A stretch of 64,000 bases of DNA from Halichondria panicea (Eukaryota > Porifera > Demospongiae > Suberitida > Halichondriidae): contig NC_087378.1 of NCBI RefSeq assembly GCF_963675165.1, positions 2,465,525-2,529,524 on the forward strand, read 5' to 3'. Under the pieces are notes generated by a model, which saw nothing but the letters and a program-made list of their open reading frames with translations, made no database searches and was not told the origin of the DNA. The position numbers were made by a program, and so were the translations under genes. Below are positions 9,522-55,752 of the stretch, one piece after another (the stretch's first letter is position 1; each line of letters starts with the position of its first letter).

Positions 9522-9744
9522 AAGGGGGCTGCTGGGCGGAGTTGCAGAGTGGTAAAGTAATTTCAATATGAACCAAATTGAACATTGCATGTAGTAAGAA
9601 GTGATAAGAACAGCAAAACAAAAAAGACATCATTTTCTCATTGTATAGTGAGATAACTAGAGAACTGTAATAATTATACGTCCACAGAATAAACTAGTGA
9701 CACATTAGATTCCCTTGTCGTCTTGGGTTTTGTGGGGAAGTAGG

Positions 9745-9875
9745 TGAATGGCATACAGTTACTGGACATGTATCGACATACAGTAAATGTTGTACTCACA
9801 TATCTGTGATCAATGTCCAGTATAATATAGCAAGAAGTGAAAGGTTTTGGAACAGGATAGAGTCTCATGGAGTCT
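9745..9875 (-). pseudogene. ZCCHC4 exon 5 fragment, copy 2
   Basis: The same ZCCHC4-derived block as at 1767-1891: GAACAGGATAGAGTCTCATG, TGATCAATGTCCAGTA and the donor-side ACTCACATATCTG are all present, with a short insertion (TATAATA) inside the former exon that breaks its frame. It is followed by the R1 head motif and by spacer that matches 1900-2430, so the block was duplicated together with the array spacer. Confidence 0.8.
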
Positions 9876-10399
9876 CGTGCGGCTACGCCTTGAGGCATAA
9901 CTACTTAACATCAGTATGAGTGGGCAGGGTTTCATACAGAGGGGGCGCCCTGGAATTCCCCCCCTGGAAATATAAAAATTAATGCCAAATAGTTGTGTTT
10001 TACAGAGGAATAATTATAATTATATACATTTAGCTATAAAATTGAATTCTACATGTATCAGACAAATCAATTGAGAAAAAGCCTCTTATATCTGGTACAG
10101 TCAAAAGTTCAGACAGGAGATTACACATCCATACACAAAATGCATTTATTTCAGAATACACTTGAGGGATACAGTTGTGTGTCTATCCCTGCATGTCTCG
10201 TAAAAACAATGAGTTTTCACCGCACAATAATAAATTATGTGTGTATACTATACCATACAATGTGTTAGATCTAAACTGCAAAAAATACTATAACTATAAT
10301 TATGGCATGCAGACAAAAAACTAAACCAAAATACGTAAGCACTATGTACACACTATTAATCAGTTCCTTCTGTATAATGTTAAAAATTACTGTAACATA
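9876..10399. repeat. Array spacer between copies C and D
   Basis: It matches 1892-2430 nearly throughout (R1 head, CTGCCCAC block, GAGAAAAAGCCTCTTATAT, then the AT-rich part up to the stop codon of the downstream gene). It differs by having one rather than four ACACTTGAGGGAT units. No gene is seen. Confidence 0.75.
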
Positions 10400-13300
10400 T
10401 CATATCTCCAAAAGTGGCTCTCTAAGAGTGTTGGAATACCTGGACATTGTGAATTTATGCTCTCTTGCATTCTCGTGCAACTCCACTACTTGCGTCGTGA
10501 ATTTATGCTCTCTTGCATTCTCGTGCAACTCCACTACTTGCGTCGTAACTTTGTCGGGTGCATTTTCTGGTACACTTTCAATATCCAATTCTTGTTTCTT
10601 CTTCTTGGAGAGCCTTTGAAGTTTGGGTCCGATCTTCTTGGCTATGTGAAAGATTATACTGCAAGCAAACTGAAAGAGAGCAAAACAAACTGAGGTAGCT
10701 GCCACTGGATTAAGAGTATCCATTTCTTGAACATCTTGCGGTTGCATTCGATAAAATAAGAATGCTCCGCCTAAGATGATGAGGTTGAGGAGGTACAACA
10801 CTTCAAGCACTGACGCAAACCACTGCTTGTATAGATATCCCACAATGGCTGTGTACACTAGCAGGAGTGTAGCTATAATGGTCGATACCAGTATGTTAGC
10901 ATTCGGATTAAAAGTCGAAGTTGACGAGAAAACAATCAATATCACTACACGGGAGATGAGCAGAATCCCTGTCCACACTTGATGCTGTTGCTTATCTTTG
11001 AATGGACCGTAATAAGAATCAAAAAACGGCTTGAATGTGTTAATCCAGCGAAGAGGTCGGCGGTCTGACTTGACTTTTAGGAAGGGTACTAGAAGGAGAG
11101 TCAAGGTGAATGGCAACCAAAACAATAGCATAAAGAGTAGTGCAACCACGATTAAGACAATGTGTCCGGGAGTTATTCCGTATTCAACATTTCCATCTAG
11201 TGACCAAACTTTGCGAATAGAGCCATTAGAGTCAGTAATGTCTGCTTTAGTAAACGCATTTGTGATGATCCTGAACAGCTTCCCATAAGATAGCAGGATG
11301 AGAGTAGATAAAACAGCAACAGAATTTCTACCAAAGAATCGAGTAGCTTTTATGGAATACCGAGAAGCTAAAATTATGAGACCAGCAATGCACCATATGT
11401 AGACCGGGAACACAAACTGTAAACCACTTTTAGTTAGTTGATCCAAATTTTGGCTGAAACATGTCTCAATACCAAAATCCAGATTAATCCAAGCTATAGG
11501 CACAGTAATGATGTAGTAGCCAATGTTCTTGCCCTGCTGTGGGAACAGTATAGCATTGTTAATCCACACAATATTTGCGTAGAATATGAGTCCATTTATG
11601 GTACCACTGGCAACTGTGAAGTCAAAGAGTGTAATCATAGCAACCAGTAAAATCCCAAGGATGGCGAACACTATCAACAGAGCAACAAAACTATTGTTAC
11701 ATTGTTCGCATCGATTACTTCCTAATTTCAGGCTGTAGTTGTCTTCACATTTTCCACACAAAATTCCAGCACGGTTCGAGCTGCATTGTGAACCAGGGGA
11801 TCTCAAGTCAACAGGTGTTGAGGTTTGATTACAGTAGTCACTAGGACAATATTGATGCCAGTAGTAAAGGTCAGTTTCATTTCTGGCAGTGTCCATTCCC
11901 ACCCACACAGTTCCTCCTCTGGTGATGTAGCCAGTGTGGTTTTGAATCTCACAGGTTAACTCCAACTGCGTAGTGTTTTTGTTGCATTCGCACACCCTTA
12001 AAGCTTTATTTAGCTGAAACCCCAGTGGACAGTTATCCACAGTGATGTTAATATAGATGGACGTAGTGAGAAGAGCTGTACACGGTAGTTTTGGGTATAA
12101 GCTTGTATCAGTGCATGTAGGAGAGTATATGCTCCTTACACTTTCTTTAATAACATCGTCATGATTGTCTTGAACAAGCGAGTCTGTAACAGAGAGGCCC
12201 AATTTAAGGGGCCTGCTTGTTTGGTTGGACAATACTGTATACGTTAGTTTTCTACATTCGACATAGGCATTGATAGATTGTATACGTTGACTGTCCATGA
12301 TATTTCCAGCCTGCCCATCCAGCACAGTAGCAAACACAGCTCCTGTAACTCTGCTAAAGTTGAATCCCACGAGAGCTACAGAAGTCTCAAAGCTCTCTCC
12401 TGGAAACCTTGTCTCGTTAACTACAAGGTACGCACGGTTTTGGCACTGTCGTGTATCGTTTACACAGAAACACACTCGAGAAGGGTCTGACGCAAGTTGA
12501 AAAGTACTCGGTACTGAATTGTCGAAATTAAAGATACTATTCTCTGAAACTGAGCAATACTTCTCAAAGTATGATATTCTTGTTAGTCCAAATATGTCTC
12601 TTCCACCGAAACCAGCATTGTTCCCAAAGAACTTCACTTGAGTATCACCACTGGCATAACTAGAATAAAAGCAAGGCCTATTAGTGACAAAACTATCGAT
12701 ATAGACAAACAAATCCTCTGTTTTGATTCCGTTTTCCACAGCAACTAGTAGCTGCGGAGAAAGAGGTGGCGCTGTAGCAATGTAGATCCCCCCACCAAAC
12801 TCAGTAGCTGTATTGTTCTCAAACCGTGTAGTCGATCCTGAATCAAAAAACACTGTTGATCGATACAAGGCCAGGGCACCCCCCCTTTTGGCATTATTGT
12901 TAGAAAACACTGTCTCTCCTGCTAACTGGAAGGTACTTTGATAGGCTAGGATCGGTGTTTCTCTGTTCTTATCAAATATACAGTCCCTGAAAATTGCTTC
13001 TTCTTTTTTGTAAGTTAATAACCAAATTCCAACAACATTGTTTTGTGTGAAATTACAATGATCCATTTTAGTAAGTAGGCCAGAAAGGTCAGTATATGAA
13101 TTACTCATAGCTAGTGCAACTCCAATCTCATTGCTATCAATCTGAGAGTTTATAAGTGTTATGCCCGAGTTTAATGATGCATAACCAATACTATTTTCAC
13201 TTATCTCCGAATTGACAATTGTCACGTTTGGTATGAGAAAAGTGTATAATCCATAGTTGACTGTCTGAAATATTTTACTGTCTTCAATCAAAAGTTCCTT

Positions 13301-14077
13301 TACTTGCCGGACATGAACTCCTTGACGGTTCTGAGATATAGTTGCGTTTTTGATTGTTATGTACGACGAGTATGGGTACACACTGAAAATGCCATATTCC
13401 GTGTATTTAGTGAAGATACTGAAAATGCCATATTCCGTGTATTTAGTGAAGACACTGTTTTGGAGTGTAAAAGAGTAGTATCCATTCATTGGTAAGTGAC
13501 GCGGTGAGAATGAATAAAAGCCTGAATAAAAGCCATACTTAGAAACAGAGTGTCCATTGAAACTCGAATCACTTATTTCAGCAGTAACGTTTATACTTCC
13601 AGATACATATACTTCCAAGCCACCAATAAACCAGTCACACCATTGGATAGTTACTTTATGTTCTTCAATTTCAGAATCATCATTTACAATGACAACTATT
13701 ATAACCGCCTCAAAAGAAAGTCCTTTGATCAAAATATTTAATGCATTTGCTCTGATTGCAAGTCCGTCAGATCGACCAATAACTTTCGGTGGTGGCCGCT
13801 GGTTTAGAAGTGCTGGCTGTAAAATTATATTGAACTCACATACAACATACAGGGTGTGGTTGAGATTGTGGACTCCCTCCAGGAATGCCAGGGTGATGTT
13901 GTTGTAGCCAGCTAATAAAGTCTGGTTTTGAGCAAACTGGTCCAGGGTGTGACAAGGTGCAGGACAGTCAATTTCTGGGAGAGTCGGAGCAACATAGAAG
14001 GTCTCTGCCATGCATAGAGAGAGGAGACCAGCTGTCACTAGCAGGGCCAGTAGATCTAGTTGAAGCATCTTGTACAT
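10400..14077 (-). CDS. Array copy D: intact secreted beta-helix ectodomain plus multi-pass membrane protein
   Basis: This is the only complete member of the array: a single exon of about 1225 residues. I start at 14077 because this Met (M-YKMLQL) aligns with the start of copy C and leads straight into a signal peptide ending near LCMAETF; an in-frame Met at 14146 would add 23 polar residues. In order: the CPAPCHTLDQFA motif; about 400 residues of repeated short strands with many N-glycosylation sites, typical of right-handed parallel beta-helix folds; a cysteine-rich region with CSSNRAGILCGKC and RCEQC; then about ten hydrophobic segments (from FVALLIVFAILG to SVCFALFQFACS); and a lysine-rich cytoplasmic tail. 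Two small in-frame duplications are private to this copy: 12 residues near 13382-13453 and 16 residues near 10450-10545. I do not know the function; a cell-surface receptor or channel-like role is possible. The fold assignment is by pattern only. Confidence 0.8.
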   Translation of the reverse strand: MYKMLQLDLLALLVTAGLLSLCMAETFYVAPTLPEIDCPAPCHTLDQFAQNQTLLAGYNNITLAFLEGVHNLNHTLYVVCEFNIILQPALLNQRPPPKVIGRSDGLAIRANALNILIKGLSFEAVIIVVIVNDDSEIEEHKVTIQWCDWFIGGLEVYVSGSINVTAEISDSSFNGHSVSKYGFYSGFYSFSPRHLPMNGYYSFTLQNSVFTKYTEYGIFSIFTKYTEYGIFSVYPYSSYITIKNATISQNRQGVHVRQVKELLIEDSKIFQTVNYGLYTFLIPNVTIVNSEISENSIGYASLNSGITLINSQIDSNEIGVALAMSNSYTDLSGLLTKMDHCNFTQNNVVGIWLLTYKKEEAIFRDCIFDKNRETPILAYQSTFQLAGETVFSNNNAKRGGALALYRSTVFFDSGSTTRFENNTATEFGGGIYIATAPPLSPQLLVAVENGIKTEDLFVYIDSFVTNRPCFYSSYASGDTQVKFFGNNAGFGGRDIFGLTRISYFEKYCSVSENSIFNFDNSVPSTFQLASDPSRVCFCVNDTRQCQNRAYLVVNETRFPGESFETSVALVGFNFSRVTGAVFATVLDGQAGNIMDSQRIQSINAYVECRKLTYTVLSNQTSRPLKLGLSVTDSLVQDNHDDVIKESVRSIYSPTCTDTSLYPKLPCTALLTTSIYINITVDNCPLGFQLNKALRVCECNKNTTQLELTCEIQNHTGYITRGGTVWVGMDTARNETDLYYWHQYCPSDYCNQTSTPVDLRSPGSQCSSNRAGILCGKCEDNYSLKLGSNRCEQCNNSFVALLIVFAILGILLVAMITLFDFTVASGTINGLIFYANIVWINNAILFPQQGKNIGYYIITVPIAWINLDFGIETCFSQNLDQLTKSGLQFVFPVYIWCIAGLIILASRYSIKATRFFGRNSVAVLSTLILLSYGKLFRIITNAFTKADITDSNGSIRKVWSLDGNVEYGITPGHIVLIVVALLFMLLFWLPFTLTLLLVPFLKVKSDRRPLRWINTFKPFFDSYYGPFKDKQQHQVWTGILLISRVVILIVFSSTSTFNPNANILVSTIIATLLLVYTAIVGYLYKQWFASVLEVLYLLNLIILGGAFLFYRMQPQDVQEMDTLNPVAATSVCFALFQFACSIIFHIAKKIGPKLQRLSKKKKQELDIESVPENAPDKVTTQVVELHENAREHKFTTQVVELHENAREHKFTMSRYSNTLREPLLEI

Positions 14078-14097
14078 CGCTAGCTCAATACAAAGGT

Positions 14098-14127
14098 CGT
14101 AAAGCCTTTTATGACTTCTTGCAGAAA
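14098..14127 (-). promoter_or_regulatory. Putative core promoter of copy D
   Basis: The minus strand carries TTCTGCAAGAAGTCATAAAA followed by GGCTTTA, the same block as upstream of copy C. The TATA-like CATAAAA lies some 30 bases before the start codon used here. Confidence 0.4.
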
Positions 14128-14409
14128 AGGGACTGGGCAACTTCACTTGGGAGTAAATTAAAAATGCGCGCTATGAATAACATTAATTAATCAATATTTT
14201 CTCACATGCGACAGCTCAGTACAGAATAGGAGTATCAGACACCCACGCACATTCCACTCCATACTTTCTCAGGGTGACATCACAAACACTGTGTAAACTG
14301 TGGTTTAGAGCCTGTCCTAGGTCTGATTAGCACAAACCACAATACAAACAAGTGGCTTGCGCATTATACATTAGCAGAATATTATTAACACCACCGAGCA
14401 CCAAGAAGA

Positions 14410-18064: not shown

Positions 18065-19255
18065 ACCTCGCTAATCCAGACCCCTTTACCTACATTACCC
18101 ATGTTACCTACATCACCTACAATTATACCCGTGCTACCTATATTACCCGTGTTACCTACATTACCTACATTATATACCTAAAATACCCGTGTTACTTACA
18201 TTACCCGTGCTACCTACATTACCCATGCTACCTACATTACCTACAATACCCGTGCTACCTACAATACCCGTGGCTACCTACATTACCCGTGTTACCTACA
18301 ATACCCATGTTACCTACATTACCCGTACTACCTAGTTGGGCGGAGTCCAATCAACTGCGTGGGGTTGGGCACCACTGCAATGTCAGGTTTTGTTCCATTG
18401 GTACTTAGCTTTAGGGTGTGGCTAACAAAGTGGGCGGTAACCGTAAATCTCAGTTAGAATGCTCTGCAGGAGTCACTTTTGCTTGCCACTAGCTCTAACT
18501 GACCTGGTGTGTTCCTGGATCAAGCTGGCTTGTCTACTATTGTTGCATTTTGATTTGACTAAAGAGAATTACCAGTTACTGACTCGTTCATTAATAAGCC
18601 ACGCCTTCAGCACTTGAACTCTGCAATCTGATTGGGCTGCAAAACTTTCGCAGTGGAACAAAACCTGACATTGCAGTGGTGCCCAACCCTACGCAGTTGG
18701 TTGGACTCCGCCCAACTACGTACTACCTACATTACCCACACTACCTATAATACCCATGCTACCTACATTACCTACGTTACCTAGAATACCCATGTTGCCT
18801 ACATTACCTACATTACCCGTGTTACCTACATTACCCGTGTTACCTACATTACCCGTGTTACCTACATTACCAGTGTTACCTACATTACCTACTTACCTAC
18901 ATTACCTACAATACCTGTGCTACCTACATTACCCGTGTTACCTCTACATTACCCGTGTTACCTATACATTACCTACAATACCCGTGCTACCTACATTACC
19001 CATGCTACCTACAATACCCGTGTTACCTACATTACCCATGCTACCTACAATACCCATGTTACCTACATTACCCCATGCTATACCTACATTACCCGTGTTA
19101 CCTACATTACCTACAACACCCATGCTACCTACATTACCCATGCTACCTACAATACCCGTGTTACCTACATTACCCCATGCTATACCTACATTACCCGTGT
19201 TACCTACATTACCTATAACACCCATGCTACCTACATTACCCACGGTACCTGAAGT
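18065..19255. repeat. ACCTACATTACCCGTG minisatellite, split by an insertion
   Basis: Imperfect units built from ACCTACATTACCCGTGTT and ACCTACAATACC, 12-18 bp long, run from about 18083 to 18334 and from 18720 to 19255. Because unit lengths are multiples of three, both strands stay open (MLPTLPVLP-type on plus, GNVGNTGNVG-type on minus). No start context, splice sites or non-repeat domain support a real protein. Confidence 0.9.
18335..18716. mobile_element. 382-bp MITE inside the minisatellite, TA flanks
   Basis: Terminal inverted repeats of about 60 bp start GTTGGGCGGAGTCCAA and end in the inverse TTGGACTCCGCCCAAC. The inner arm CAATGTCAGGTTTTGTTCCA (18378-18397) pairs with TGGAACAAAACCTGACATTG (18655-18674). 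TA lies on both sides, as for Tc1/mariner-type insertions. The insertion splits the minisatellite and so is younger than it. Confidence 0.85.
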
Positions 19256-33957: not shown

Positions 33958-36900
33958 ATGAGTGACTTCCTCGACCACACTGACCGTCCAAAGATTGCCT
34001 GGTCCAAGACACTTAGCAATCTCACTGCTAGCAATAGTACGTCTAAAAAGCAGAACTTGTAGTCTTGTGTTTGGGTATACATAACATACATACGATACAT
34101 ATAAATTATACATAATATATGCAATGTTAACTACGTGATTTGTATTGATTTGTATGTATTCATGTTAACATTGTACTGCGTTTACTTGTTTGGAAAGATT
34201 TGTCATGAAACTTGCAATACAATGCACACACGTCAAAGTCGGAAAGGGATTTGATTTGATAGTAATATTGTGTATGGATCAGATTATGTGATAACCACCT
34301 TCACAAGACTGCTGTGTACACCTTTAAACTGCTAATGTCACCTGTTTACGAGAATCAAGCACTGATTAATGCTGATCAATAGATTTCCTCTAGTGATAGA
34401 GTTCATTATAAATGATGATTATTATATTCTCTAGTAACTCCTTCACCTGCGTCAACATTGTCCTCTGGTCCTACCAAACCTCGTAACCAAGTTTCCCGCA
34501 AGTTGGCCGCACAATTGGCAGCAGCTGCAGGATATTCAGATGTTGAAAAACTTTCTGAAGCTGCTTCAAAGTGAGTTTGCTCAACTGTCTTAATCATCTT
34601 TTTCTAGAATAACGCCACGTTGCGATTATTGTGAGAGAATAATACTGTATAACTTGTTTTGTATTGCAAAAGTAACCCTCCTTACTTACCCCAGGGGCGA
34701 CATAGACAGCTGGGACCCAAGAACATTCGATCACGAGTCGCGCTCGTTCAATTCGTATGAGGAGGGTGGTCTTGGCTCAGTCATGCAGAACTGCAAGGAG
34801 TCTGGCCCCAAAACCGTCAACCTCTATGTTGGTAAAATACCAGCCACCCTCACCAAGGTGTTTACTTTTTCAGTGCAACTTGTAAAGATTGACAGTTTTC
34901 ATTGTAATTTCGAAATATTTTTTTAGGATACATGCACCATGTCACCGGAATTTTCTCCCAATGTTTGCTTGAATTTGTATAGACCTAGTGCTCAGTCTGT
35001 TTGTTGTTCTTCTGTGCAGGAGGGTCTTCGTAAACTCTTCTCAAGGGCTGGGAAAGTGAACCGTGTTTTTCTCAACAACCCCAAGACTGGGCAAAACCTC
35101 ACCTTTGGGTAAGTTCACTAGAATGTGATTAGATCACACTGTACTTGCAAAACAGTGTCAGTATATGAATACCCTGGCCAAAAAAATGTTATGCTTCGGA
35201 TGTGTAGGGTTACGTGATTAGGTAGACAGTAATTATGTTATCATAATTATCATTGTTTACGTTAGGTCACCAACTAGGCCTGGTAAATATTGCATGATTA
35301 TGGGCGTGGTTTCAATTCGTTCAGATTCAACTAATTTCTTCGTAAAAGCTGCCGTAATCACAAAAATAGCTCTGTGTTACAAGATATCTAAGCTAGCTAG
35401 GTATTCTAGGTGGTAGCAAGAGTTCATTAGCTCTTCTCAGGAGTATTAAGGACTGTCCAAATTAAAATGACATGGAATTTTGTTATAATGATATTCATAT
35501 AATGATATTCATGCGCGCAACGTCATCGCTTTGGAATGTTTATCACGTGCGTGGGTGGCAAACGTCTGCAATTACTGGTGAGGGCGGAGCTTGGGTCATA
35601 TGACACTCTTACTTAATTTATTAAAGTTGACCGTAGCTACTTGATTGAGTAAAACCCTGAAAGCATTTGTTGTAGGCTACCTAGTAGCTATTAAAGGCCT
35701 TAACTAAGACTAGTAGAGAACTTGTTTCCTGCTGCGCAAGACAGTGCAGCCAAGCAAGAAAGTTAGGAGGAGAAATCAGGTAAATATTAGCTTGTTGTTT
35801 GTATAGACCATGATTACCTATGAATCTGCTTTTGCGCAGCAGGATTTCATCAGTATATGATATGTACATCAGGATTCCAGGAAAAGATAGGATCTAACTA
35901 AATTGGAACAAATGCTTATTTTATAATTAGTTTTACAAGGAAATTTCATGTTAATTGGTCACATGATAATCACATGATCTTTATTTTTGATTAAGGAAAC
36001 CTAAATGTCAAATTAATAATTATGTTTAATATCGCACACTTTTCAATGTATGTGACGTTGGCCTTTTCTTGATTCTGGACGTGCCTTAATGCACCTGAGT
36101 TGGTAGTAGCTATCAAGTTGTGTCAAACAAGAAGGCCTCCCTCAATGAGCATCAAGTCCAAGCTGTCAACTCCAGTGTGAAGGAATGGACATTTTGTGTG
36201 GTTCCCTACTGTTGCAGACAGTGAACTTGGAAGCCATTTAGCTCGATCTACCTGGTCGTTAGATAGCATTCTATTATTTATTTGTATGTAGTTTAAGGTA
36301 GTTAACGTAGTTAACGAGGGAGCGGCCTTACCTCGAGAAAAGGGGCACTCAGACATACGGGCGTGCCCCTTCTTGCATGCATAGCCTACACGTGCAAGCT
36401 TACAGAACTGTCTTACAAGTGCGTTGACGGCTGCTCAACTTTCGAGCCTCCCACCCCCCCAGTCGGTTACTACCTATCACCTCTTTCCATCTGTTGATGA
36501 GGGCCCCCCCAAACACTTACATGCTTAATGTTAACCACGGGGGCCCCTCTCTCAGGACTCCCCCAAAACCTAACCACAGTCACGTGACCTTCGACCTCTA
36601 GGGCGACAGAGTCCACGGGACACGTGACTCCAGCTTAGTCCCGGTACTGCCAAAATGTTAATAATATCCGCGCACCGGATATGACACTCTAGTTATTGCA
36701 ACACTCTTGCGACCGTAGTTAACATTTGTGTAGCTGATTATACAATAGACCTTAGATCTCTATAGACACACCCATATGCAATCTTCACTAGGAAACATAG
36801 CGTTATTTTGGAGACAACTCGGCCTGGGTACATGCATGTATACGTAGCTTTGCTGTCTGGCAATCCATAGTAACGGATTATTAGCGGGTGTGTTGTACCA

Positions 36901-39900
36901 GAGCTCAATGCGCTTGTATTCAAGAATGCGCTTATGTTCATTTCAAGCCACCCAGTAACCAAATAAAGAGTAATGACTCGCCTACTAAGCAACCATAAAC
37001 TGTATCAATGAAAGCATCGCAGGTGCTGATGCCTCGGTGGATGTGTCAAAGCTACATAACATAAAGCTACTATAGCTAATAGACACGGATACATATCGTA
37101 ATGTTCTTACTGTATAAATCAGTAATCACAGATGTACTGTGCACAGTGAATGTGTACGGCAATGCAATGTCCTTTGATCTATAATTACCAGCAAAACTCA
37201 AAGAGTGGGCGTTCCAAACCGATTTTTCTCCAATAGAGCATAGTTTGCGTTAAGGAGGAAAGCCTGTCTGTAAAGAAGATTTTGCAAGCTTTTGTACCAC
37301 AACTGAAGCTATCCTTGAGATTGTAAGCGGTTCCAATAGCTACTACTAGTTGCACAGACTGAATGTCTGGAGCTAAGAAAGATTCTACTGTCGATAACTC
37401 TCATCAGCTTGCAGCATCACAAAACAAGCAGGCCGTTAAGGGCAAGGTACTTCAAATAGTATACTGGGATGCTACACTCCTACTTTCTGAATAACGAGTA
37501 ATTTAGTCGACAAATTTCACATTGAACTCAAATGTAAAAAAAACTCAGCAATATTTGTGCTCGTGTGATGTTGTCTGGCCCCCCCGAGCTCTGTGTATGA
37601 CTATCATCCAATAATTTTGCACATGCGCAAGCAGCCAGTAGCAGGCCTCCTTTCTGAGGCCTTGTGAAGGAAGCTAGATCAGGCCCCAAAGAGGTTGGAG
37701 AGACTCGCATCACCAGCTATATTATTAGAGCTACCATGCACTATACAAACTAGCTAGCTCTAAAATTATCGTATCATATATCCGTCGCATAATTAAATAT
37801 AGTCTGGTACAAAAACCAGCAGTCAAGCATGTGTTTAAAATAACGATACGTAGGACTACGCTTGTAATCGAGTATGTGCTAATAATCCAGTTTCTATAGT
37901 GTATAACATTATGCTGCATTATAATAGTTGTGTAGGCAGTGCATTTACAGTTATAACTGGATTTCTTAACTCAATAAGTTTCCTGGTTTTTACGTGTGTA
38001 GCTGTGCCCTAATGCAAAAACTGCATATATTTGCTTTGACAAAATTAATTTTTTCTGTAGGTTTGTCGAATTCAATACAATCAAAGAAGCAGCTTCAGCA
38101 ATTCAATTACTACACAATTTCGATATTGGCAACGATGACCGCCTTGTTGTCAAGATATCCGAAACACACGAACAGAAAGAAGCCAGACTTTCAAGACGAA
38201 CAAATTCACTTGCTTCTCACGTCCCCTCATTTGACGATACTGAGTGTGATTCTATCACTGACAATACTCATGATAACCCCCTCCTACCACAATACAAGTC
38301 GCTGTCCCTACGGAGTCCCGGAAAACCAAATCCAGCTTTCGACAGTATTGTAGGCACACAGAGGTCCCCGGCAGGTGGGGCTACTAGCCTGAAAGCTATG
38401 TCCAGTGCATTTGAGCAGGAACCAAATGAGAAAGTGTGTGAAAGAGCCTCTTCTGTGAATTCGACTCGAATTAACGATTATCTTCCCTGCCATGTGTGTG
38501 ACACATCCACTTTCAATCGTTGCTCGTTGTGCAAGACAGCTTATTGTTGCCTACGCTGTCAAACCCAAGACTGGCCAAAGCATCAATCGGAGTGCAAGCT
38601 AATCCAACTCGAGGGGAACGTTGGTTCTGTTGACCCTCCAACCCCACCCAGACCCTGTACCCCCCCACTTCATAAAACAAGCAATGGTCTACTTAGAGAC
38701 GATTCTAGTGACAGTTTCGATGAGCTATATGTCGATGAAGATGTCAAGTATCAGCAACTCAAAAACGAATTTAGTTTCGAACAGAAAAATGTGGATACTC
38801 AAAACAAGCCTGCGGAGGCTACGACACCTTCTACTGAAGCTGCGATTATGCAAATCCCATCTGCATTTGCACCGGTTACTGCTGCAGCTACACCTTCTTT
38901 TGAGAGTGAGCTTTTCCAGAATCCTTCCAAAAACCGTTACAAAGAGGCTGAAGGAGTTCCTTTGCAAGCTATTCTACCCCAATTCGACCTGGTGGCTCAG
39001 CCGTTGCCGTCTATTTCCCTCAGGGATACCGAGCTTCCCGAAGATTTTCCTGTGATTGTTACAGCGTATTGCGATGTTTCACACTTTAGTGTTATTCCAG
39101 CCTCAGTTGAAACTCTCCAAGCGTTCCTTAAAATAAAAGATTTCGGTGATAGGTCTGATTTCAGTCCCGAATACTCTTCAACTATTGGTACGATTTGTGG
39201 GTACAAAGATGAAAGTGGAACCTTCTATAGACTAAAGATTATCCACACACCAACACAAACTGTTGATCTTTATGACACTGGTTACAGAGCCATTCTCCCG
39301 TTCACTTCATTCGTTAAACTCCCCGATGAACTTATCTCCATCCCGAGTCTGTATAAAAGGTGCTCCCTCAATGATCTGCGACTAAACCCTGAAGTGCCTG
39401 GTGGAGTCGAGTATCTCAAAGAATTAATCGATCTAAAACCTGTACTCATAAATAGCGCCAACCTATACAGTAGCAATGACATGCAGATCCTCTGTTGTTG
39501 CATATCCACTTTGGACAAGCTGGTCGACATTCATGGCAAAATTGCTGCCAGTCAATTCTGTACAAAGAAGAACTATAATAACAATTCCAACATGTCAAAT
39601 CCACGGTCTCTTAATAAACTAGCACTCGATTCAAACCAATCTGGACACAGATCACCTTTTGGCACGGCTCAAAATACATCGACTCCTGGGCAGCCATCGG
39701 TCAATGGTGGCACACTTTACAAACCAGTCCAAATGGCATGCAAGGTCCCTTTTCACTGCCCACCTTTCAACGAAACTTTGACCATCATCCCCAGGGTTGT
39801 CCTAAACCCAAACATGATATGGGCTCAAACTATTCACAAGAACTTTTCCAATTTTCACAAGCTGCAAGCTGATGTCAATTCCATGTATCAGTCGTCTGTG

Positions 39901-42900
39901 GATAGTTCCTACGCACCTTCTGTTGGCGAAATGTGTATTGCCAAGTTCTCTAGCACCCAGTCTTTCTATCGAGCTGAAGTGCTCTGTGTGAACCACAACG
40001 GAACGGTTGACGTGCATTTTGTAGACTTGGGTAACCGAGAGACTGTCTCTACCGAGCAACTTCATTACACAATGTCCCACTTCCTCACTCTACCAAAGCA
40101 AGCGCTGAAGTTCTCCCTCGCTGGTCTGGGCCCTGCTAACACTGCACACAGCTGGAGCGATGCAGCTGTCATTGTATTGAAAGACAAGATAGTGAATCGT
40201 CGAGTGCAAGTGAAGATATTGTCCGTCACGAACGAAACGTTGGAGATTGAAATGTACGATCCTGAAGATCCCTCGCTGACTATAAACGATTTCCTTGTAC
40301 AGAGAGGACTAGGGAGTGTTAATGTCACATGTGTGGGCACACCCACCATCCCTACAACACCAACTGGCAGCATCACGGGAGTTTCCGTTAGCTCCACCGC
40401 TCAATCACTTGCAATGGCTTTCAAGAAATTAGTGAGCCCTAGCGCTGACCCCAAGCAGAGTGGCGATTATCTTCCTTCTATTTCTGAGTCACCTGCAGTG
40501 ATGAATAATGTTGCTACAGCTGGTATTGTTAATGGTCACCATGTGCCACCGCACAAAGTATCTCCGTCTAGTATGAACGTTTCCTCTGTGGAAAAGATGT
40601 TGTCTTTTAATTCTTCTGAATCAAGTGCTGCAGAGGATCATTTCGAGTCTTCTACCATGGCACCCCCAATTGATGAAGTAAGCCCTCGTTGTAATGGAGT
40701 ACATTCCTCTTCAGCTACAAAGTTTTCTCCTACTTTTAACGACGAACTGATAATCAATTACGTTGAGCTGAAAAAGGACACGATATGTCAAGTGACTGTC
40801 ACTCATATTACCAACCCATCTGATTTTTGGGTGCAACAGTTGAGTAAGCTAGCCGTCAACAAACTAATGTCTTTGTACGATAAGATCAAGAAGACTGAAC
40901 TCGTGCCTCTAACTTCTGTCTCTGCTGGTGACTTGTGTTTGTGTCGATTTTCTGAAGACAAACAAATTCATAGAGCTCGTGTACATTCTATAGAAAACAA
41001 AACTGCTGTTGTCATCTATCTCGATTATGGTAACTCTGAAACTGTCCCGTTAAATGACCTCTACGCAGTTAGCAGTGAATTGACTTCGTTCAAGCAGCTA
41101 GCGACATCGTGTACAATCAATAATCTTCTCAAACCAGACGGAAAGTTGTCCAAGTGGAGCGAAAGCTCTGTTATCTTCTTCAAAGAAAAAGCTTTTGACA
41201 AAGAAGTTGAAATGAGAGTTGTTAAATGTATGGGACGCAAGCATGTTGTCAAGATCTTTATCAATACCAGTAAAGGAAAGGAAAACATGTTGGATTTGTT
41301 TGTTAATAGTGGACTGGGAAAAAGAAGTGATTTGCCAAGTGAAGAACGTAAAAGAAAGCAAAGATCCCCTCAAAAGAACGAGTCTAATTTCCGGCAAAGA
41401 TCCAGCCCCAGTGAGAATAGTTCAACAACTTTTCGGACTGATAAAAAGTTTCCTACTGAACAAAATTCCGGCACGTTTCTTCGGCGAGACCGTTCAACTG
41501 AAGAGCCGTATGAAATCTCTCTATCCAATTCAAAACTCTCTCCTCCCCCTCAAGCACGTGTGTATTCGAAAGTAGCCGACATGAAAGTGGTCGATCTTTG
41601 TGGAGAAACTGATGTTATGGTGTTGGAAGTCTATCACCCTCAGAACATTGTTGTGCAACCGGCCAGTACTGGGAATGCTGAATGCCTTGATAAACTGTCC
41701 ACCAGTTTGAGTGCACTCACGGTGCAACCTTCAAAGTCTGATTTGCCTGGTGTTGGCTCTCTCTGCTGTGCTAATTTCTCGCTGGATGGACTTTGGTATC
41801 GAGCGCAAGTGTTGAAACATTCTCCGTCTGGAGCTGAGGTCTACTTCATCGATTATGGTAACACGGAAACTGTTCAGGCTCAAAGTATCACCCAGTGCCC
41901 CCAGGACGTTGCCGATATCCCTGTATGTGCAGTGAAGTGTTCTCTGAATGGAATATCACCTGCTCCTCCCAACACCGAGTGGCCATCCGAAGTAGCAGCT
42001 CGTCTCAAGATTCTGTGCTCAGAGAAAATCCTTCACGCGAAGGTGCTCAGTGCCAATTCTGCTAATGGTGTGAAGAATATTCAATTGTTTGATTCTTCCA
42101 GTGGTGATAAGATGGACATTGCTGCTAATTTGATTCAACAGAAGTTGGCTGCTCCTGTTGCTATGGCAAGCGTTAGAATGCCCAAAATCTCTGATATTCA
42201 ACAAGTTACTCTGCCCTCTGGCGTTTTCCAAGTTGCCATTAGCCATCTTGAATCTCCAGCGGAGATGTATGTTCAGCTAGCCACTCCAGAAAATGCTGCA
42301 CTCTTGGACGAATTTAGCACAGATCTCAACGACAAATTCTCATCCAATCCTCCCGTTCCACTGAAAACTCTCCCATCCAAAGGATCTCTCTGTGCTGCCA
42401 AATTCTCTGACAATTCCTGGTACAGAGCCGAGGTTTTATCTGTGTCAGGCACCAGCTGTGAAGTGAGATTCATCGACTACGGTAACAAAGACATGGTTGA
42501 TTTGAAGAACATGACCTATTGTCCTGAAGAGCTTCTGTCCGCACCTTGTTTTGCCATCTGTTGTAAACTAACTGGAGTGGAGTCCCCCAGTTTTGACAAA
42601 ACATCCTGGACAAAAGAATCTATTTCACAACTCAGAAACCTAATATTCGAGAAAATTGTGCAGGCTAAAGTGACTGGTACTGATGCATTAAACAATTCTC
42701 CATTGTTGAAGCTCAAGGATCCCTCCAGTGATACTAGTGTCGGCCAAAAGTTAGTGCAGCTCGGATTTGCAGTGGATTTGAATGTCGCCAAGCAAGTATC
42801 AAATACTATTCTCCCATTAGCTACGGTATTGAAGAAGCAAAAGCTACCAAGTGGGACATTTGCATTGATGGTGACTGAAGTTATATCTCCTGGAGAAATC

Positions 42901-45900
42901 TATATTCAAGTGGCCAATCCTGAACTGGCCAGCTTGTTGGATGTGCTAGGTACTGATCTCAACAACAAGTTCACTCCCGGAATTCCACCCTCTCTTGTGA
43001 TAAAATCTCCCCCACCTAAGGGATCTCTGTGCTGTGCTAAGTTCTCTGATGGTTCCTGGTACAGAGCCGAGGTCTTATCTGTGTCTGGCACCAGCTGTGA
43101 AGTGAGGTTCATCGATTTTGGCAATAAAGACATGGTCGATTTGAAGTGCTTAGCTGTCCTTCCCGAGGAGTTTCTGTCTGCACCTTGCTTTGCCATTTGC
43201 TGTGGACTAGCTGGAGTGAAATCTCCTGCCGCTACTAAGGAAGCCTGGCCGCAAGAATCAGCTGCACGGCTTGCTCAGTTAGTGGCTGACAAACTCTTGA
43301 GTGCTGAAGTGGTGAACGTAGATCAACCTAACAATGTTCCTCTTTTGAGACTGAGAGATTCTGCTGATGCCGATTTAAGCCATGATTTGCTAGAGAAGGG
43401 ATTAGCATTGACTACTGAAAAAACTTCTCCCCCCAAAAAGCAAGTTGTGTGTTCACATCCTGTTGCGACGATGCTGAAGAAGCTAGAGCTACCGACTGGT
43501 GTTTTCCAGGTTATTGTGAGTGAATGTGGGTCTCCTGGAGAAATGTATATTCAACTAGCCACTCCCAAACTAGCTCAATCGCTGAGCCAGCTGGGCGAAG
43601 ATCTCAATGACAAGTTCTCTCCATCTATTCCACCGTCACTTGTTGTAGAAACGCCCCCATCCAAAGGTTCTCTTTGTGCTGCCAAGTTCTCTGATGGCTG
43701 CTGGTACAGAGCCGAGGTCTTATCTGTGTTAGGCACCAGCTGTGAAGTGAGGTTCATCGACTACGGCAACAAAGACACGGTTCTACTCTATAATTTAGCA
43801 ACCTGTCCTAACGAGTTCTTGGTAGCACCTTGCTTTGCCATTCAGTGTGGACTAGCTGGAGTGGAGTCTCCTAATTCAAACAAGGTGATCTGGCCAGAAG
43901 AATCGATACTGCATCTCAAACAGCAAACTACCGACAAGCTTTTGAAGGCCAAATTAGCCAACATCCACCCAGTCAGCACTATTCCCTTTTTGAAGATGAA
44001 AGATCCTGCTAGTACAAGTGGCACGGATGTGAGCTCTGAGTTAATTCAACAAGGTTTTGCATTGAGCCCAGCCAACTTCTCTCCCAGTGCACCAACCAAA
44101 AAGTCACCAACATCTCTAGTAGCAAAGCCTTCTCCTAATCCTCTAGCAACTCCTTCTCTCAGTTTACAAGCAACAAAGTCTCCTAACTTCAACATAGAAA
44201 AACAACCAAGACAATCTCTTCCAATGGCAACTGTGTTGAAGAAATATGAGTTACCTTCTGACGCTTTTCAGGTTGTTGTAAGTGAGGTGGTGTCTCCAGT
44301 AGAGATGTATGTTCAGCTAGCTACGACAGAGATAGCTACAATGCTGGACAAGCTGAGTGCTGACCTAAACAATCATTTATCTTCCAACCCTCCTGTCTCT
44401 CTTATCAGTAAAGCTCCCCCATCCAAAGGTTCTCTCTGTGCTGCCAAATTCTCTGACGATTCCTGGTACAGAGCCGAGGTTATATCTGTGTCATGCACCA
44501 GCTGTGAAGTGAGATTCATTGACTACGGTAACAAAGACATGGTTGATTTGAAGAATATGACCTATTGTCCTGACAAGTTTTTGTCTGCACCTTGCTTTGC
44601 CATCCGTTGTGGACTAGCTGGTGTGGAGTCTCCTAATTCTAACAAGGCAATTTGGCCAGAAGAATCGATAGTGCATCTCAAACAGCAAACTACCGACAAG
44701 CTTTTGAAGGCCAAACTAGCCAACATCCACCCAGTCAGCACTATTCCCTTTTTGAAGATGAAAGATCCTGCTAGTACAAGTGGCACGGATGTGAGCTCTG
44801 AGTTAATTCAACAAGGTTTTGCATTGAGCCCAGCCAACTCCTCTCCCAGTGCACCAACCAAAAGGTTACCAACATCTCTAGTAGCAAACTCTTCTCCTAA
44901 TCCTCTAGCAACTCCTTCTCTCAAATTACAAGCAGCAAAGTCTCCTAACTTCAACATCGAACAACAACCAAGACAATCTTTTCCAATGGCAACTGTGTTG
45001 AAGAATTGTGAGTTACCTTCTGACGCTTTCCAGGTTGTTGTAAGTGAGGTGGTGTCTCCAGTAGAGATGTATGTTCAGCTAGCTACAACGGAAGTAGCTA
45101 CAATGCTGGACAATCTGAGTGCTGACCTAAACAATCATTTATCTTCCAACCCTCCTGTCTCTCTTATCAGCAAAGCTCCCCCATCCAAAGGTTCTCTCTG
45201 TGCTGCCAAATTCTCTGACGATTCCTGGTACAGAGCCGAGGTCTTGTCTGTGTCAGGCACCAGCTGTGAAGTGAGATTTATCGACTACGGTAACGAAGAC
45301 ATGGTTGATTTGAAGAACATGACCTATTGTCCTGACAAGTTTCTGTCCGCACCTTGCTTTGCCATCCGTTGTGGACTAGCTGGTGTGGAGTCTCCTAATT
45401 CTAACAAGGCAATTTGGCCAGAAGAATCGATAGTGCATCTCAAACAGCAAACTGCCAACAAACTGATGAAGGCCAAACTAGCCAACATCCACCCAGTCAG
45501 CACTATTCCCTTTTTGAAGATGAAAGATCCTGCTAGTACAAGTGGCACGGATGTGAGCTCTGAGTTAATTCAACAAGGTTTTGCATTGAGCCCAGCCAAC
45601 TTCTCTCCCAGTGCACCAACCAAAAAGTCACCAACATCTCTAGTAGCAAACTCTTCTCCTAATCCTCTAGCAACTCATTCTCTCAGTTTACAAGCAGCAA
45701 AGTCTCCTGACTTCAACATTGAACAACAACCAAGACTATCTTTTCCAATGACAACTGTTTTGAAGAAATGTGAGTTACCTTCTGACGCTTTCCAGGTTGT
45801 TGTAAGTGAGGTGGTGTCTCCACTAGAGATGTATGTTCAGCTAGCTACAACGGAAGTAGCTACAATGCTTGACAAGATGAGTGCTGACCTAAACAATAAG

Positions 45901-46971
45901 TTATCTTCCAACCCTCCTCTTTCTCTTATCGCCAAAGCTCTCCCATCCAAAGGTTCTCTCTGTGCTGCCAAATTCTCTGACAGTTCCTGGTACAGAGCTG
46001 AGGTCTTGTCTGTGTCAGGCACCAGCTGTGAAGTGAGATTCATTGACTACGGAAATAAAGACACGGTTGAATTGAAGAACATAACCTATTGTCCTGAAGA
46101 GTTTCTGTTCGCACCTTGCTTTGCCATCCGTTGTGGACTAGCTGGTGTGGAGTCTCCTAATTCAAACAAGGCAATTTGGCCAGAAGAATCGATTTCACAA
46201 CTCAGAAACACAACTGCTAACAAACTTATGCAAGCCAAAGTTATAGGCTCTGATCGTTTCCCTTCATTAGATCTATGCGACCCAGGAAGCTCGTCGAATG
46301 TCAGCCAAGACTTGATTCAACAGGGATGTGCAGTGGATCCAAGTGTTACACATGTACATGTACCTATTCCCACCAAAATAGAGCTGCCTTCTGATACTTT
46401 CCAGCTTGTCGTGAGTGAAGCTGTGTCTCCAGCTGAGATGTATGTTCAGCTAGCCACTCCAGAAAATGCTACACTTCTAGACAAATTGAGTACAAATCTC
46501 AATCATAAATTCTCATCCAATCTTCCTGTTCCACTGAGAACTCCCCCATCCAAAGGTTCCCTCTGTGCTGCCAAGTTCTCTGATGGTTTATGGTATCGAG
46601 CTGAGGTTTTGTCTGTGGCAGGCACCAGCTGTGAAGTAAGATTCATTGACTATGGCAACAAAGACACAGTACAACTCCACAATATGACTGCTTGTCCTGA
46701 AGAGTTCCTGTCAGTACCCTGCTTTGCCATTTTGTGTTCTCTTGACAGTGTTGTTTCCCCCAATGGTGATCTAAGTGTATGGCCAGAGAAATCTATCTCA
46801 GGATTGAAGCAACTCGTTTCCGATATGTTGATGAAAGCCAAGGTTGTACGAAATGGTGCTGTTCCAGTGGTTAAGATAAAGCAGGAGGAAAGTGTGGGGA
46901 AAGGTGATGTCAGCTACCAAATGATTCAGCAAGGTTGGGCCCTGGATCCAAGGATGCTCTCAGAATTCTGA
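33958..46971 (+). CDS. RRM-MYND-eleven-Tudor protein (TDRD1/TDRD6-like, piRNA pathway type)
   Basis: Five exons: 33958-34036, 34435-34570, 34695-34857, 35020-35108, 38061-46971; 3125 residues, phases consistent. Domains: an RRM at about 110-190 (RNP2 LYVGKI; RNP1-like LTFGFVEF, built across an intron; its first two positions are not the usual Arg/Lys-Gly); a MYND zinc finger at about 297-340 (CHVCDTSTFNRCSLC, then CLRC, HQSEC); and eleven Tudor cores near residues 532, 778, 1112, 1387, 1597, 1810, 2024, 2279, 2533, 2787 and 2988. Cores 3-5 and 7-11 keep the FIDYGN-type or LDYGN motif with WYRAEV (or equivalent); core 6 has FIDFGN, core 2 FVDLGN and core 1 (LYDTGY) looks degenerate. Family knowledge: extended Tudor domains bind symmetrically dimethylated arginine on PIWI proteins, and MYND-Tudor proteins scaffold germ granules. 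Human TDRD1 has MYND plus four Tudors, while TDRD10 has RRM plus Tudor; this gene combines both types. Confidence 0.92.
35109..38060 (+). other. Long intron 4 of the Tudor gene
   Basis: 2.95 kb, against 70-400 bp for the gene's other introns. It contains a stem-loop (AAGGGGCAC/GTGCCCCTT, 36340-36371), C-rich stretches near 36440-36560, a small possible exon at 37363-37446, and a short repeat (CTTCCTTCACAAGGCCTCAG in inverse orientation at about 37656-37675) that also occurs near 16859. Nothing else is supported. Confidence 0.6.
37363..37446 (+). other. Possible alternative first exon inside the Tudor gene
   Basis: An ATG opens 28 codons (MSGAKKDSTVDNSHQL, then AASQNKQAVKGK) that end exactly at a usable donor (AAG|GTACTT). 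Its phase (0) does not match the exon at 38061 (which needs two preceding bases), so a direct join would hit a stop within about 20 codons. It would need an unseen linking exon, or belongs to a separate transcript, or is a chance frame. Confidence 0.25.
43663..46200 (+). repeat. Near-identical Tudor units in the giant exon, 762-bp period
   Basis: The Tudor cores at 44428, 45190 and 45952 are spaced exactly 762 bp apart and their whole units, including the low-complexity linker (AKSPNFNIE, SPSAPTK), are nearly identical. The unit at 43663 is 764-765 bp before the first of these and shares the second half (PVSTIPFLKMKDPASTSGTD). Units at 42382 and 43021 are 640 bp long and more diverged. The spacing and identity point to recent in-frame tandem duplication. 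Confidence 0.92.
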
Positions 46972-53300: not shown

Positions 53301-55752
53301 CTCCCTGTTGATTGTCCCTGCAGTTGTATTTCCCGAGAGTCAACTGTACGTGCTGTTCTCAGCTGAGAATTCGGGTGTGCAACTAGGAAGTTATGTGGTA
53401 GGTTTCAATTGTGGTCTCTAGATCTGTACTTCTAGAGTAACTACCAATAACTTTGGTTTGAGTCACTTCCTATATTATTATCGTGGGTTAATGGCTAGCC
53501 TGAGGCAATTTTAAATGTGCTAGTATGTGTTATAATTAAAGAACACTTTCTCCCCTGTACAGTACCATTCGTTACAGGAGGCCATCAGCGTTTTACAGCA
53601 AGTGACTGCTACCATAGCAATTGGAGAAGCTGTAAGTTGTCGTACAACACATTCATGCACATAATAGCTTTTAAATAGGCTACCCTTTACCAGAATTATT
53701 TTAGCATGTGGAAAAAAGGTTCTGAACTGAATCATGAAACATGCTGCCCCCACACAGTGTGTCTGTGTTGATTATTCTCTTCTACCCTCAGGCACTTGAG
53801 TTCGAGCACCGTGACATGCACAGGGGCAATGTTCTAGTGAGGAGAACACACGAGAAGTACCATTACTTCAGACTCAACAATAAGGAGTACTACATTGAGA
53901 GCCACGGTGTGCAGGCCACCATTGTGGACTATACCCTCTCCAGAGTAAAGCAAGGTGTGTGTGTGTGTGTGTGTGGACTGATGGGGGGAGGGGCGCATCT
54001 AAGTGTGTGTTCTTTTAATTGCCTCGTTTTTGCTGTGTATACTATATTGGGCCACTCACCCCTTCTGTACAATCATGTAGCTTGTACTGTACATGTTATA
54101 CTACCTACCTAGCCCATCTCTTTATTATAGAGCCACTGTTGATATGAACCAGTGTAATCCTATAGATCATGTTTTACAAGTGTACATTAATTGTACTTGC
54201 TACCACACATTCTACAATCATGTACGTATTCAAGCTCAGGACATTATTTTATCTCCCTGTAGATTCCGAGTGTGTCTCGTTCACTGACCTCAACAACATG
54301 CCCTGGTTGTTCAAGGGCAAAGGGGACATCCAGTTTGACGTGTACAGAAATATGAGGAACGATACAAAGTGAGCCATCTCCTCCTTACCTAGCACTCTGT
54401 TCCATTGGGTTGTATTATACAAAGTGAGCCATCTCCTCCTTACCTAGCACTCTGTTCCATTGGGTTGTATTATACAAAATGAGCCATCTCCTCCTTACCT
54501 AGCACTCTGTTCCATATTGGGTTATATTATACAAAGTGAGCCATCTTCTCCTTACCTAGCACTCTGTTCCATTGGGTTATATTATACAAAGTGAGCCATC
54601 TTCTCCTTACCTAGCACTCTGTTCCATTGGGTTATATTATACAAAGTGAGCCATCTGCTCCTTACCTAGCACTCTGTTCCATTGGGTTATATTATACAAA
54701 GTGAGCCATCTCCTCCTTCCTTACCTAGCACTCTGTTCCATTGGGTTATATTATACAAAGTGAGCCATCTTCTCCTTACCTAGCACTCTGTTCCATTGGG
54801 TTATATTATACAAAGTGAGCCATCTTCTCCTTCCTTACCTAGCACTCTGTTCCATTGGGTTATATTATACAAAGTGAGCCATCTGCTCCTTACCTAGCAC
54901 TCAGTTCTATTTGGTTATATTATACAAAGTGAGCCATCTGCTCCTTACCTAGCACTCAGTTCCATTGGGTTATATTATACAAAGTGAGCCATCTTCTCCT
55001 TACCTAGCACTCTGTTCCATTGGGTTATATTATACAAAGTGAGCCATCTGCTCCTTACCTAGCACTCAGTTCTATTTGGTTACCATAATATAGCATGTAA
55101 ATGTTCATGGTTTTCGCTGATTATAAGCATGATTGCACTGCTATATCCACGAATTTACTATCACATGCATAGTCCACGAAAACCTTTCTAACAATTATTC
55201 TGCGAAAGTTTATACCCTATACGCACACCTATATACGGTATATACAAAGTGAGCCATCTGCTCCTTACCTAACACTGTGTTGCATTTGCAAAGTGAGCCA
55301 TCTGCTCCTTACCTGTTCCATTAAAGTGAGCCATCTTCTCCTTACTTAACACTCTGTTCAATTTATTCTGGTGCCTCGCGGAATAGGTGCCCGTAATGGG
55401 GGCACTGTTTAGAACTGTTTTCATGTAATGTGGTACTGTGTGAATGCTTTATAATCATGACTTTTATACATGTTAACGTTGATTTTAACTGTACCCCTAT
55501 CCCTCTCCTCTCAGGAACAAATGGGAAGAGCACCATCCCTTTACTAACGTCTTGTGGATCAACTACATAGCAACCAAGATGAGTATCAAGGCCAAGTTGA
55601 AAGGACCAAGCTCAAAGACATGGAAACAAAAGTTAGAGCCCTACGTTCGAAAGATACTTCGACACAGAACTGTTAATGACGTCTTCTTGAACATTTTCTC
55701 CCCTGAAAGAATTTTAAAGAAACCTGTCTCTAGGAAATCAAATAAATCTTAA
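47306..55752 (+). CDS. Haspin-family histone H3 Thr3 kinase with predicted N-terminal signal anchor
   Basis: Thirteen exons: 47306-47505, 49175-49235, 49537-49643, 49730-49820, 50521-50606, 51880-51916, 52094-52140, 52633-52724, 53324-53397, 53563-53631, 53792-53954, 54263-54368, 55515-55752; 456 residues, all phases fit. Family role: haspin phosphorylates H3 Thr3 at mitotic centromeres to recruit the Aurora B complex. Seen here: glycine loop KIGEGAFADVFG (130-141), Lys153 (LAIK), alpha-C region PETVVSMIELSLLG, catalytic EHRDMHRGN (D296), the haspin-specific DYTLSR in place of DFG (D334), QFDVYRNM and NVLWINYIATKM. Exon 1 encodes KKRLTLVLYTVLIGASLFLL, a signal-anchor-like segment not expected in a nuclear kinase. 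Its phase fits exon 2, but the link across a 1.7-kb intron is inferred. An in-frame upstream Met (47201) would add 35 residues. Confidence 0.9.
49281..49343 (+). repeat. R1 repeat, 5' fragment
   Basis: TTATGCCTCGAGGCATAGCC through the GTGTGTGTGTGTGTCAG run matches the first third of R1. It lies in haspin intron 2, just after the donor. Confidence 0.7.
50751..50906. mobile_element. Family M8 MITE in haspin intron 5
   Basis: It begins TACCGTACAGCTGGTGAATT and ends with the inverse-like AAATTTACCCGGTACACGGT. The inner part TTGGCGAATGAGACAATTGA matches 25989-26008. Confidence 0.75.
51179..51487. mobile_element. 309-bp element of family M7 in haspin intron 5
   Basis: It starts CATAGAAAGAAGAGAAAGGG and ends with the inverse CCCTCTCTCTTCTATCTATG, related to the ends of the 872-bp element at 22048-22919. 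The flanks are GTGCACAAC on the left and GTGCAAC on the right, a decayed duplication of about 7 bp. Confidence 0.8.
52353..52485. mobile_element. 133-bp MITE of family M6 in haspin intron 7
   Basis: The ends CAGAGGAGGTCCGACATGCG and CATGTCGGACCTCCTCTG match family M6 (20226-20346) over about 20 bp. The arms continue inward as CACGAATCATTACAAGTTCAGTGCA / its inverse, a different inside. No clear target duplication remains. Confidence 0.88.
52594..52632 (+). repeat. 12-bp triplicate at the haspin exon 8 acceptor
   Basis: TCTATTCACATG occurs twice and is followed by TCTATTCACAG, where the final AG is the acceptor of exon 8. The real splice site is thus the last unit of a small tandem array. Confidence 0.8.
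53168..53323 (+). repeat. 54-bp tandem repeat copying the haspin exon 9 acceptor
   Basis: Three units, each ending in the pyrimidine tract and AG of the acceptor (TTGATTGTCYCTRCAG); the AGs lie at 53215, 53269 and 53323. Only the last leads into an open exon: use of either upstream AG would bring in an in-frame TGA from the following unit (GTTAGTTGAC). Confidence 0.9.
54361..55335 (+). repeat. 55-bp minisatellite copying the haspin exon 12 donor
   Basis: About 16 units; the conserved start (A)CAAAGTGAGCC is at 54365, 54420, 54475, 54532, 54587, 54642, 54697, 54756, 54811, 54870, 54925, 54980, 55035, 55245 and 55289, with a decayed one near 55322. In the first unit CAAA|GTGAGCC is the real exon 12/intron junction, so every later unit is a decoy copy of this donor. 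The third unit has AT instead of GT. A MITE (55081-55240) splits the array. Confidence 0.92.
55081..55240. mobile_element. Family M8 MITE inserted in the donor minisatellite
   Basis: TACCATAATATAGCATGTAA to CCTATATACGGTA. It is the inverse of the copy at 61207-61372 (shared AACCTTTCTAAC/GTTAGAAAGGTT and the GCGAAAGTTTATACCC block). It splits the array with TA at the borders. Confidence 0.8.

Follow-up and report, generated by a model that had tools for sequence, protein, structure and literature searches.

Does a single sponge gene join an RNA recognition motif (RRM), a MYND finger and a long series of Tudor domains in one protein, and if so, what does the combination say about the origin of PIWI-interacting RNA (piRNA) scaffolds? 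We addressed this question for a 64,000-nucleotide stretch of Halichondria panicea DNA (contig NC_087378.1, positions 2,465,525 to 2,529,524), referred to as the window. A first-pass annotation of the window had proposed that five exons join in phase, and in-phase joining of the genomic sequence reproduced its coordinates, GT-AG borders and phases. The five exons yielded 3125 codons in one frame without an internal stop. All four introns (398, 124, 162 and 2952 bases; phases 1, 2, 0 and 2) are of the GT-AG type, and an in-frame TAA at 33952 lies 6 bases upstream of the predicted start ATG at 33958, with five further ATGs between 33801 and that start. One sponge gene thus appears to encode a giant RRM-MYND-eleven-Tudor protein. 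The gene model is established at the sequence level, from which we infer that the join is also transcribed.

The best evidence for the predicted join of exons 4 and 5 is the complementarity of two RRM halves. In a Pfam search of the first 476 residues, residues 115 to 180 matched RRM_1 (E = 2.7e-13), and the joined RRM scored 53.5 bits over positions 1 to 66 of the profile. The half encoded by exons 3 and 4 alone matched positions 1 to 42 (25.9 bits), and the half at the start of exon 5 matched positions 43 to 66 with 14.3 bits, which is below the cut-off of 20.7; the profile is split at the splice site into two exact complements. RNP1 is built across intron 4 (LTFG from exon 4 and FVEF from exon 5), as had been proposed, and a search of intron 4 in its three forward frames found no RNP1-like string. 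RNP2 (LYVGKI) and RNP1 (LTFGFVEF) retain the aromatic residues at positions that contact RNA in known RRMs. The RRM was assigned to the Tudor gene because its second half shares an uninterrupted frame with the MYND finger and the Tudors. An artefact fusing two neighbouring genes was discarded in view of the complementary halves. A small open frame in intron 4 (ATG at 37363) was also rejected as an alternative first exon, since the 263 bases at 37197-37459 are a dispersed repeat with at least 41 genome matches including itself (40 of 97 candidates scored); the stretch 36106-36699 has at least 52, again including itself (40 of 194 candidates scored). Several RRM matches elsewhere in the genome stop near profile position 44-46, which suggests that RNP1 is often interrupted by an intron in the RRM genes of this genome, as it is in the window gene.

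The remaining domains are encoded by exon 5. The zf-MYND profile matched with 24.9 bits (E = 2.1e-5; cut-off, 22.7), and TUDOR matched 11 stretches (E = 1.3e-253). This profile search of the translation agreed with the predicted set of an RRM, a MYND finger and eleven Tudors; the 8.9-kb exon said to hold "nearly all" of the Tudors in fact contains all 11 matches. Proteins of the TDRD1/Vreteno group have a MYND finger and, after it, several extended Tudors in the same chain, and exon 5 shows this arrangement in one open frame. Its best PDB matches were extended Tudors of TDRD1 (5m9n, E = 1.2e-19; 4b9w, E = 5.3e-17). Five cage positions, which we take to be those that hold dimethylarginine, were read from the TDRD1 rows of the PDB alignment to exon 5. 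Complete aromatic cages were found in eight of the eleven units (W3-W10), where the group has at least one caged Tudor; those of W0, W1 and W2 are incomplete. Searched by itself, W0 still passed the Pfam cut-off of 23 with 26.7 bits despite its degeneracy. A structural model of W8 gave an extended Tudor (pLDDT 82) with TDRD1 5m9n as the best match (TM 0.85 by target). The model of W0 also matches extended Tudors and is supportive, not independent, because its alignment included the other ten units.

Seven of the eleven Tudors (W4-W10) are the product of repeated tandem duplication under purifying selection. Whereas the identity of W0-W3 to any other unit is 14-38%, that among W4-W10 is 53-95%, and these seven form one clade in a tree of single units (support 97/98). 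Their DNA spacing is 639, 645, 762, 762, 762 and 603 bases, and three copies at the 762-base spacing are 93-94% identical over a 300-base reference. In the 10 computed pairs of the 21 possible among W4-W10, dN/dS was 0.26-0.55; the youngest pair, W7/W8, had a dS of 0.095 and a dN of 0.025, and the other computed pairs had a dS of 0.37-1.23. Clade, spacing and dN/dS therefore argue for tandem duplicates kept under purifying selection. W0-W3 are divergent, and the sponge lineage probably multiplied a terminal Tudor type from one to seven.

Profile scans covered the whole genome (131 Mb in 39 contigs) and gave 51 TUDOR matches: the window gene accounts for 11, a second giant open frame for 17 and the rest of the genome for 23. 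Of 15 MYND matches, the window's is the only one inside a Tudor locus; the next closest is ~103 kb away from such a locus. The RRM scan, which misses intron-split RRMs, the window's included, gave 108 matches (150 of 221 candidates scored), with none within ~37 kb of another Tudor locus. At that sensitivity, the genome contains no separate TDRD1-like or TDRD10-like gene. PIWI, GTSF and PRMT5 are the usual partners of such a scaffold, and candidates for them were recognized by sequence: a PIWI gene (L015) whose RG-rich N-terminus opens with MTGRARGRARGRSRGQ, a second PIWI gene (L014), a double-CHHC GTSF candidate and exons matching PRMT5. With the whole L015 query, human-type PIWIL1 scored 310.7 bits and Piwi-A (7kx7, presumably from the sponge Ephydatia) 281.5, the 7kx7 chain being shorter; over the common part the two tied (207.6 versus 206.3 bits), so that the comparison is nondiscriminating. 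L014 scored 382.4 with Piwi-A, 333.6 with PIWIL2 and 307.1 with PIWIL1.

Taken together, these features make it probable that the gene is a sponge member of the TDRD1/Vreteno group that acts as a multivalent piRNA scaffold. The RRM would hold substrate RNA, and the MYND finger, together with flexible linkers, would bring the protein to a nuage-like granule. The caged Tudors W3-W10 would dock several PIWI proteins via symmetrically dimethylated arginines in their RG-rich N-termini, and the broken-cage units W0-W2 could take up partners that do not depend on methylation, such as unloaded PIWI or GTSF, as has been suggested for silkworm Vreteno. With many PIWI proteins gathered at a single bound RNA, cleaved RNA would pass more readily from one PIWI to the next. 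From domains, cages and candidate partners we infer RNA binding, PIWI binding, granule localization and a role in piRNA production. Published work on insect proteins is in line with parts of this scheme. In silkworm Vreteno, the RRM binds RNA and Ago3 docks on the sole caged Tudor via methylated arginines; the first Tudor after the MYND finger (AF-eTD0) is degenerate, two of the three Tudors are cageless, and the cageless ones are the proposed holders of unloaded Siwi (PMC10711660). The granules of Aedes Veneno require its MYND finger (PMC6411831). If the assignment holds, eight intact cages on one chain would offer a natural case for studying the effect of Tudor valency in a germ-granule scaffold.

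Several results weigh against this assignment. Known members have two to four Tudors, far fewer than eleven, neither TDRD10 nor Vreteno is named among the best 60 of 179 PDB matches of the RRM/MYND part, and scans of viral contigs and genome contigs returned no relative; an NCBIfam search likewise gave none. In the gene model itself, the weak points are exons 1 and 2, which carry no homology or recognizable domain and were placed by their splice sites, their phase and the stop ahead of the start codon. The W0 model is modest (pLDDT 59; best match 5m9n, E = 6.1e-9, TM 0.55, rmsd 8.7). The unit tree, a check that the first-pass annotation had suggested against TDRD1/4/6/7/10, took in the window units, those of the other giant gene and, from that list, two TDRD1 units; it recovered the W4-W10 clade, but the two TDRD1 units were not placed with those of the window. 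Apart from that clade, support is weak (5 of 27 inner branches starred): the eleven units of the window gene do not form one clade, and G15, a unit of the Tudor-only giant, groups with W3-W10 (95/88). Finally, deletion of the Veneno RRM leaves granules and Ago3 binding intact (PMC6411831), and the sponge RRM may therefore be nonessential.

As to the origin of the combination, the first-pass annotation had left a choice between an ancestral scaffold that later split and a lineage-specific fusion. The order of RRM, MYND finger, degenerate Tudor and caged Tudors is common to the sponge and the silkworm, and an ancestral RRM is therefore favoured, on the domain order of two lineages. A split into TDRD10 found no support, and the lineage-specific part is the amplification of W4-W10, not clearly a fusion. 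The RRM-MYND-Tudor plan would thus have existed before the sponge and insect lineages parted, and vertebrate TDRD1, fly Veneno and Kotsubu would have lost the RRM. We give an even chance to the fuller scenario, in which a single RRM-MYND-multi-Tudor scaffold supplied both RNA and PIWI docking in the sponge-bilaterian ancestor, TDRD1 was reduced and gets its RNA otherwise, and the sponge protein became an eleven-Tudor hub. How the TDRD1 complexes of mouse and fish, which lack an RRM, get target RNA is a question raised in the 2023 silkworm study (PMC10711660). Vreteno, Veneno (CG9684) and Kotsubu are described as three fly TDRD1 orthologs, and among those drawn only Vreteno has an RRM, which is termed "additional" (PMC9002060). 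The RRM-MYND-Tudor order in a sponge turns the polarity: the RRM would be ancestral and its absence derived, reversing the view in the fly literature. The polarity of RRM loss could be tested by sampling sponges, cnidarians and lophotrochozoans.

Alternatively, the sponge lineage could have fused an RRM of its own to a TDRD1-type gene independently of insects, and the shared order would then be uninformative on the ancestor. RRMs are common and mobile, as the 108 genome matches illustrate, the window RRM finds its best PDB matches in generic RNA-binding proteins, cS22 and ELAV for instance (best 60 of 179 matches), and the gene has plainly been remodelled by the amplification of W4-W10. However, its domain order is identical to that of silkworm Vreteno down to the degenerate Tudor, and the scan that misses split RRMs revealed neither a MYND-Tudor gene without an RRM nor an RRM within ~37 kb of another Tudor locus. 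We consider such convergence less likely than an ancestral RRM.

A different alternative is that the locus mostly yields a MYND-Tudor protein that lacks the RRM and is expressed from a promoter within or close to intron 4, beside a minor or absent RRM form; in a mild version, there would be two isoforms, as in the silkworm, where Vreteno also has a short form without the RRM (PMC10711660). Intron 4 is the longest of the four, and the first in-frame ATG of exon 5 encodes residue 269, just ahead of the MYND finger. Yet exon 5 starts with the second half of the RRM, which is sensible only when joined to exon 4, two out-of-frame ATGs precede residue 269 in this exon, and the two stretches of intron 4 that were tested are dispersed repeats. 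This use of the locus is improbable in our estimation. Still less credible is the proposal that vertebrate TDRD1 and TDRD10 arose by the splitting of a common ancestor that survives as this gene. As the first-pass annotation had correctly stated, TDRD1 and TDRD10 are separate proteins, and a 2025 survey of Holozoa tabulates TDRD1 with a MYND finger and TDRD10 with an RRM and one Tudor (PMC12147562); the sponge gene holds all three kinds of domain. Nothing found links the sponge RRM to TDRD10, though, the joined form is kept in insects, and RRM loss alone accounts for TDRD1. That the Tudor number is an assembly error in a repeated exon, as the near-identical copies at the 762-base spacing might hint, can be dismissed almost entirely, since the copies differ by many substitutions (even W7/W8, and the other computed pairs far more), the frame is open throughout the array and the genome is assembled in only 39 contigs.

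Features of the predicted RRM-MYND-Tudor gene and the evidence for each (window coordinates)
Feature	Position	Strand	Evidence
Exon 1, predicted start codon, 79 bases	33958..34036	+	in-phase join, donor GTACGT, upstream in-frame TAA; no homology
Exon 2, 136 bases	34435..34570	+	in-phase join, GT-AG; no homology
Exon 3, RRM start, RNP2 LYVGKI from 34822	34695..34857	+	in-phase join, Pfam
Exon 4, mid-RRM through first half of RNP1	35020..35108	+	in-phase join, RRM_1 profile
Intron 4, 2952 bases, dispersed repeats at 36106-36699 and 37197-37459	35109..38060	+	GT-AG, genome matches
Exon 5, 8911 bases, RRM end, MYND, eleven extended Tudors, stop	38061..46971	+	open frame, Pfam
RRM C-terminal part, RNP1 second half to ~residue 190	38061..38163	+	RRM_1 positions 43-66 from first residue of exon 5
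MYND finger, residues 299-334, seven Cys and one His in MYND spacing	38488..38595	+	zf-MYND, pattern
Tudor W0, degenerate, cage lost	39037..39372	+	TUDOR profile, cage reading, model
Tudor W1, cage incomplete (F Y F L N)	39769..40125	+	TUDOR profile, cage reading
Tudor W2, cage incomplete (F H Y Y N)	40771..41121	+	TUDOR profile, cage reading
Tudor W3, cage complete	41608..41952	+	TUDOR profile, cage reading
Tudor W4, cage complete, amplified clade	42226..42576	+	TUDOR profile, cage reading, tree
Tudor W5, cage complete, amplified clade	42856..43215	+	TUDOR profile, cage reading, tree
Tudor W6, cage complete, amplified clade	43504..43860	+	TUDOR profile, cage reading, tree
Tudor W7, cage complete, amplified clade	44257..44622	+	TUDOR profile, cage reading, tree
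Tudor W8, cage complete, amplified clade, confident extended-Tudor model	45019..45384	+	TUDOR profile, cage reading, tree, model
Tudor W9, cage complete, amplified clade	45781..46146	+	TUDOR profile, cage reading, tree
Tudor W10, cage complete, amplified clade	46387..46746	+	TUDOR profile, cage reading, tree

Other loci were observed along with the gene. The second giant frame lies ~0.48 Mb downstream on the same contig (C2:2982919-2994015; L001, L002) and has 4162 codons and 17 TUDOR matches, 14 of them with complete cages; it is Tudor-only in the part read, and no MYND or RRM match occurs in or near it. Five short TUDOR matches (39-41 residues, the last third of the profile) form two clusters on C15, near 0.99 Mb and at 5.52-5.54 Mb, and six MYND matches at C17:3519981-3529727 are spread over two long open frames (1284 and 1442 codons). 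An Argonaute-type gene was recognized by eye at C2:7472501-7482000 (L013) and holds a minisatellite with more than one frame open. Four short loci (L023-L026) encode Ser where cathepsin L has its catalytic Cys (CGASYAF, CGSSYAF), the other matches being ordinary cathepsins; we take this exchange in a cathepsin-L fold to be the mark of silicatein. The silicatein-type loci and the L014 PIWI point to a siliceous sponge as the source of the sequence. At C1:5280527-5280718 (L016), the nuclear sequence carries a piece of mitochondrial COX1 that contains two TGA codons. In the window itself, right-handed beta-helix and NosD-type repeats occur on the minus strand of 2431-14170 in frames of 978, 814 and 1256 codons, beside a 437-codon frame without a Pfam match; a 155-base tandem pair lies at 5763-6072. 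Minisatellites were observed at 54362-55082 (55-base unit, 12.9 copies, 94% matches) and at 18126-19250 (arrays of an 18-base unit with strong GC skew).

Comparison with known systems places the sponge protein closest to the insect plans. Vreteno of Drosophila and Bombyx mori shares with it the N-terminal RRM, the MYND finger and extended Tudors; compared by published domain plan, however, Vreteno has two or three Tudors and the sponge protein eleven (PMC10711660). The RRM ahead of the MYND finger, which scored across the predicted junction, is the feature of the Vreteno subtype, and in view of its Tudor count we hold the sponge protein to be an enlarged variant. Veneno of Aedes aegypti, an adaptor between Ago3 and Piwi5, likewise combines an RRM and a MYND finger, but with two Tudors (PMC6411831), and fly Veneno is without the RRM. 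Vertebrate TDRD1 and Drosophila Kotsubu resemble the sponge gene in having a MYND finger and then several extended Tudors, but they lack an RRM and have four Tudors. TDRD10 shares the RRM and a Tudor, but its Tudor is single and no MYND finger is listed for it in the Holozoa survey (PMC12147562), in contrast to the eleven Tudors and MYND finger found here; the same survey lists Vreteno without an extra domain and reports most Tudor genes from sponges. The long extended-Tudor arrays of the Tudor/TDRD6/TDRD15 type and of the 4162-codon frame are similar to that of the window gene, which adds an RRM and a MYND finger to this Tudors-only plan. In the open-licence literature, to which the search was directed, the only RRM-MYND-Tudor cases found were from insects. 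The fused form that the first-pass annotation had put forward is therefore present, with all domains in one frame, and is not new as a kind, since insect Vreteno and Aedes Veneno share its plan. What is new here is the occurrence of this plan in a sponge, together with the enlarged Tudor array.

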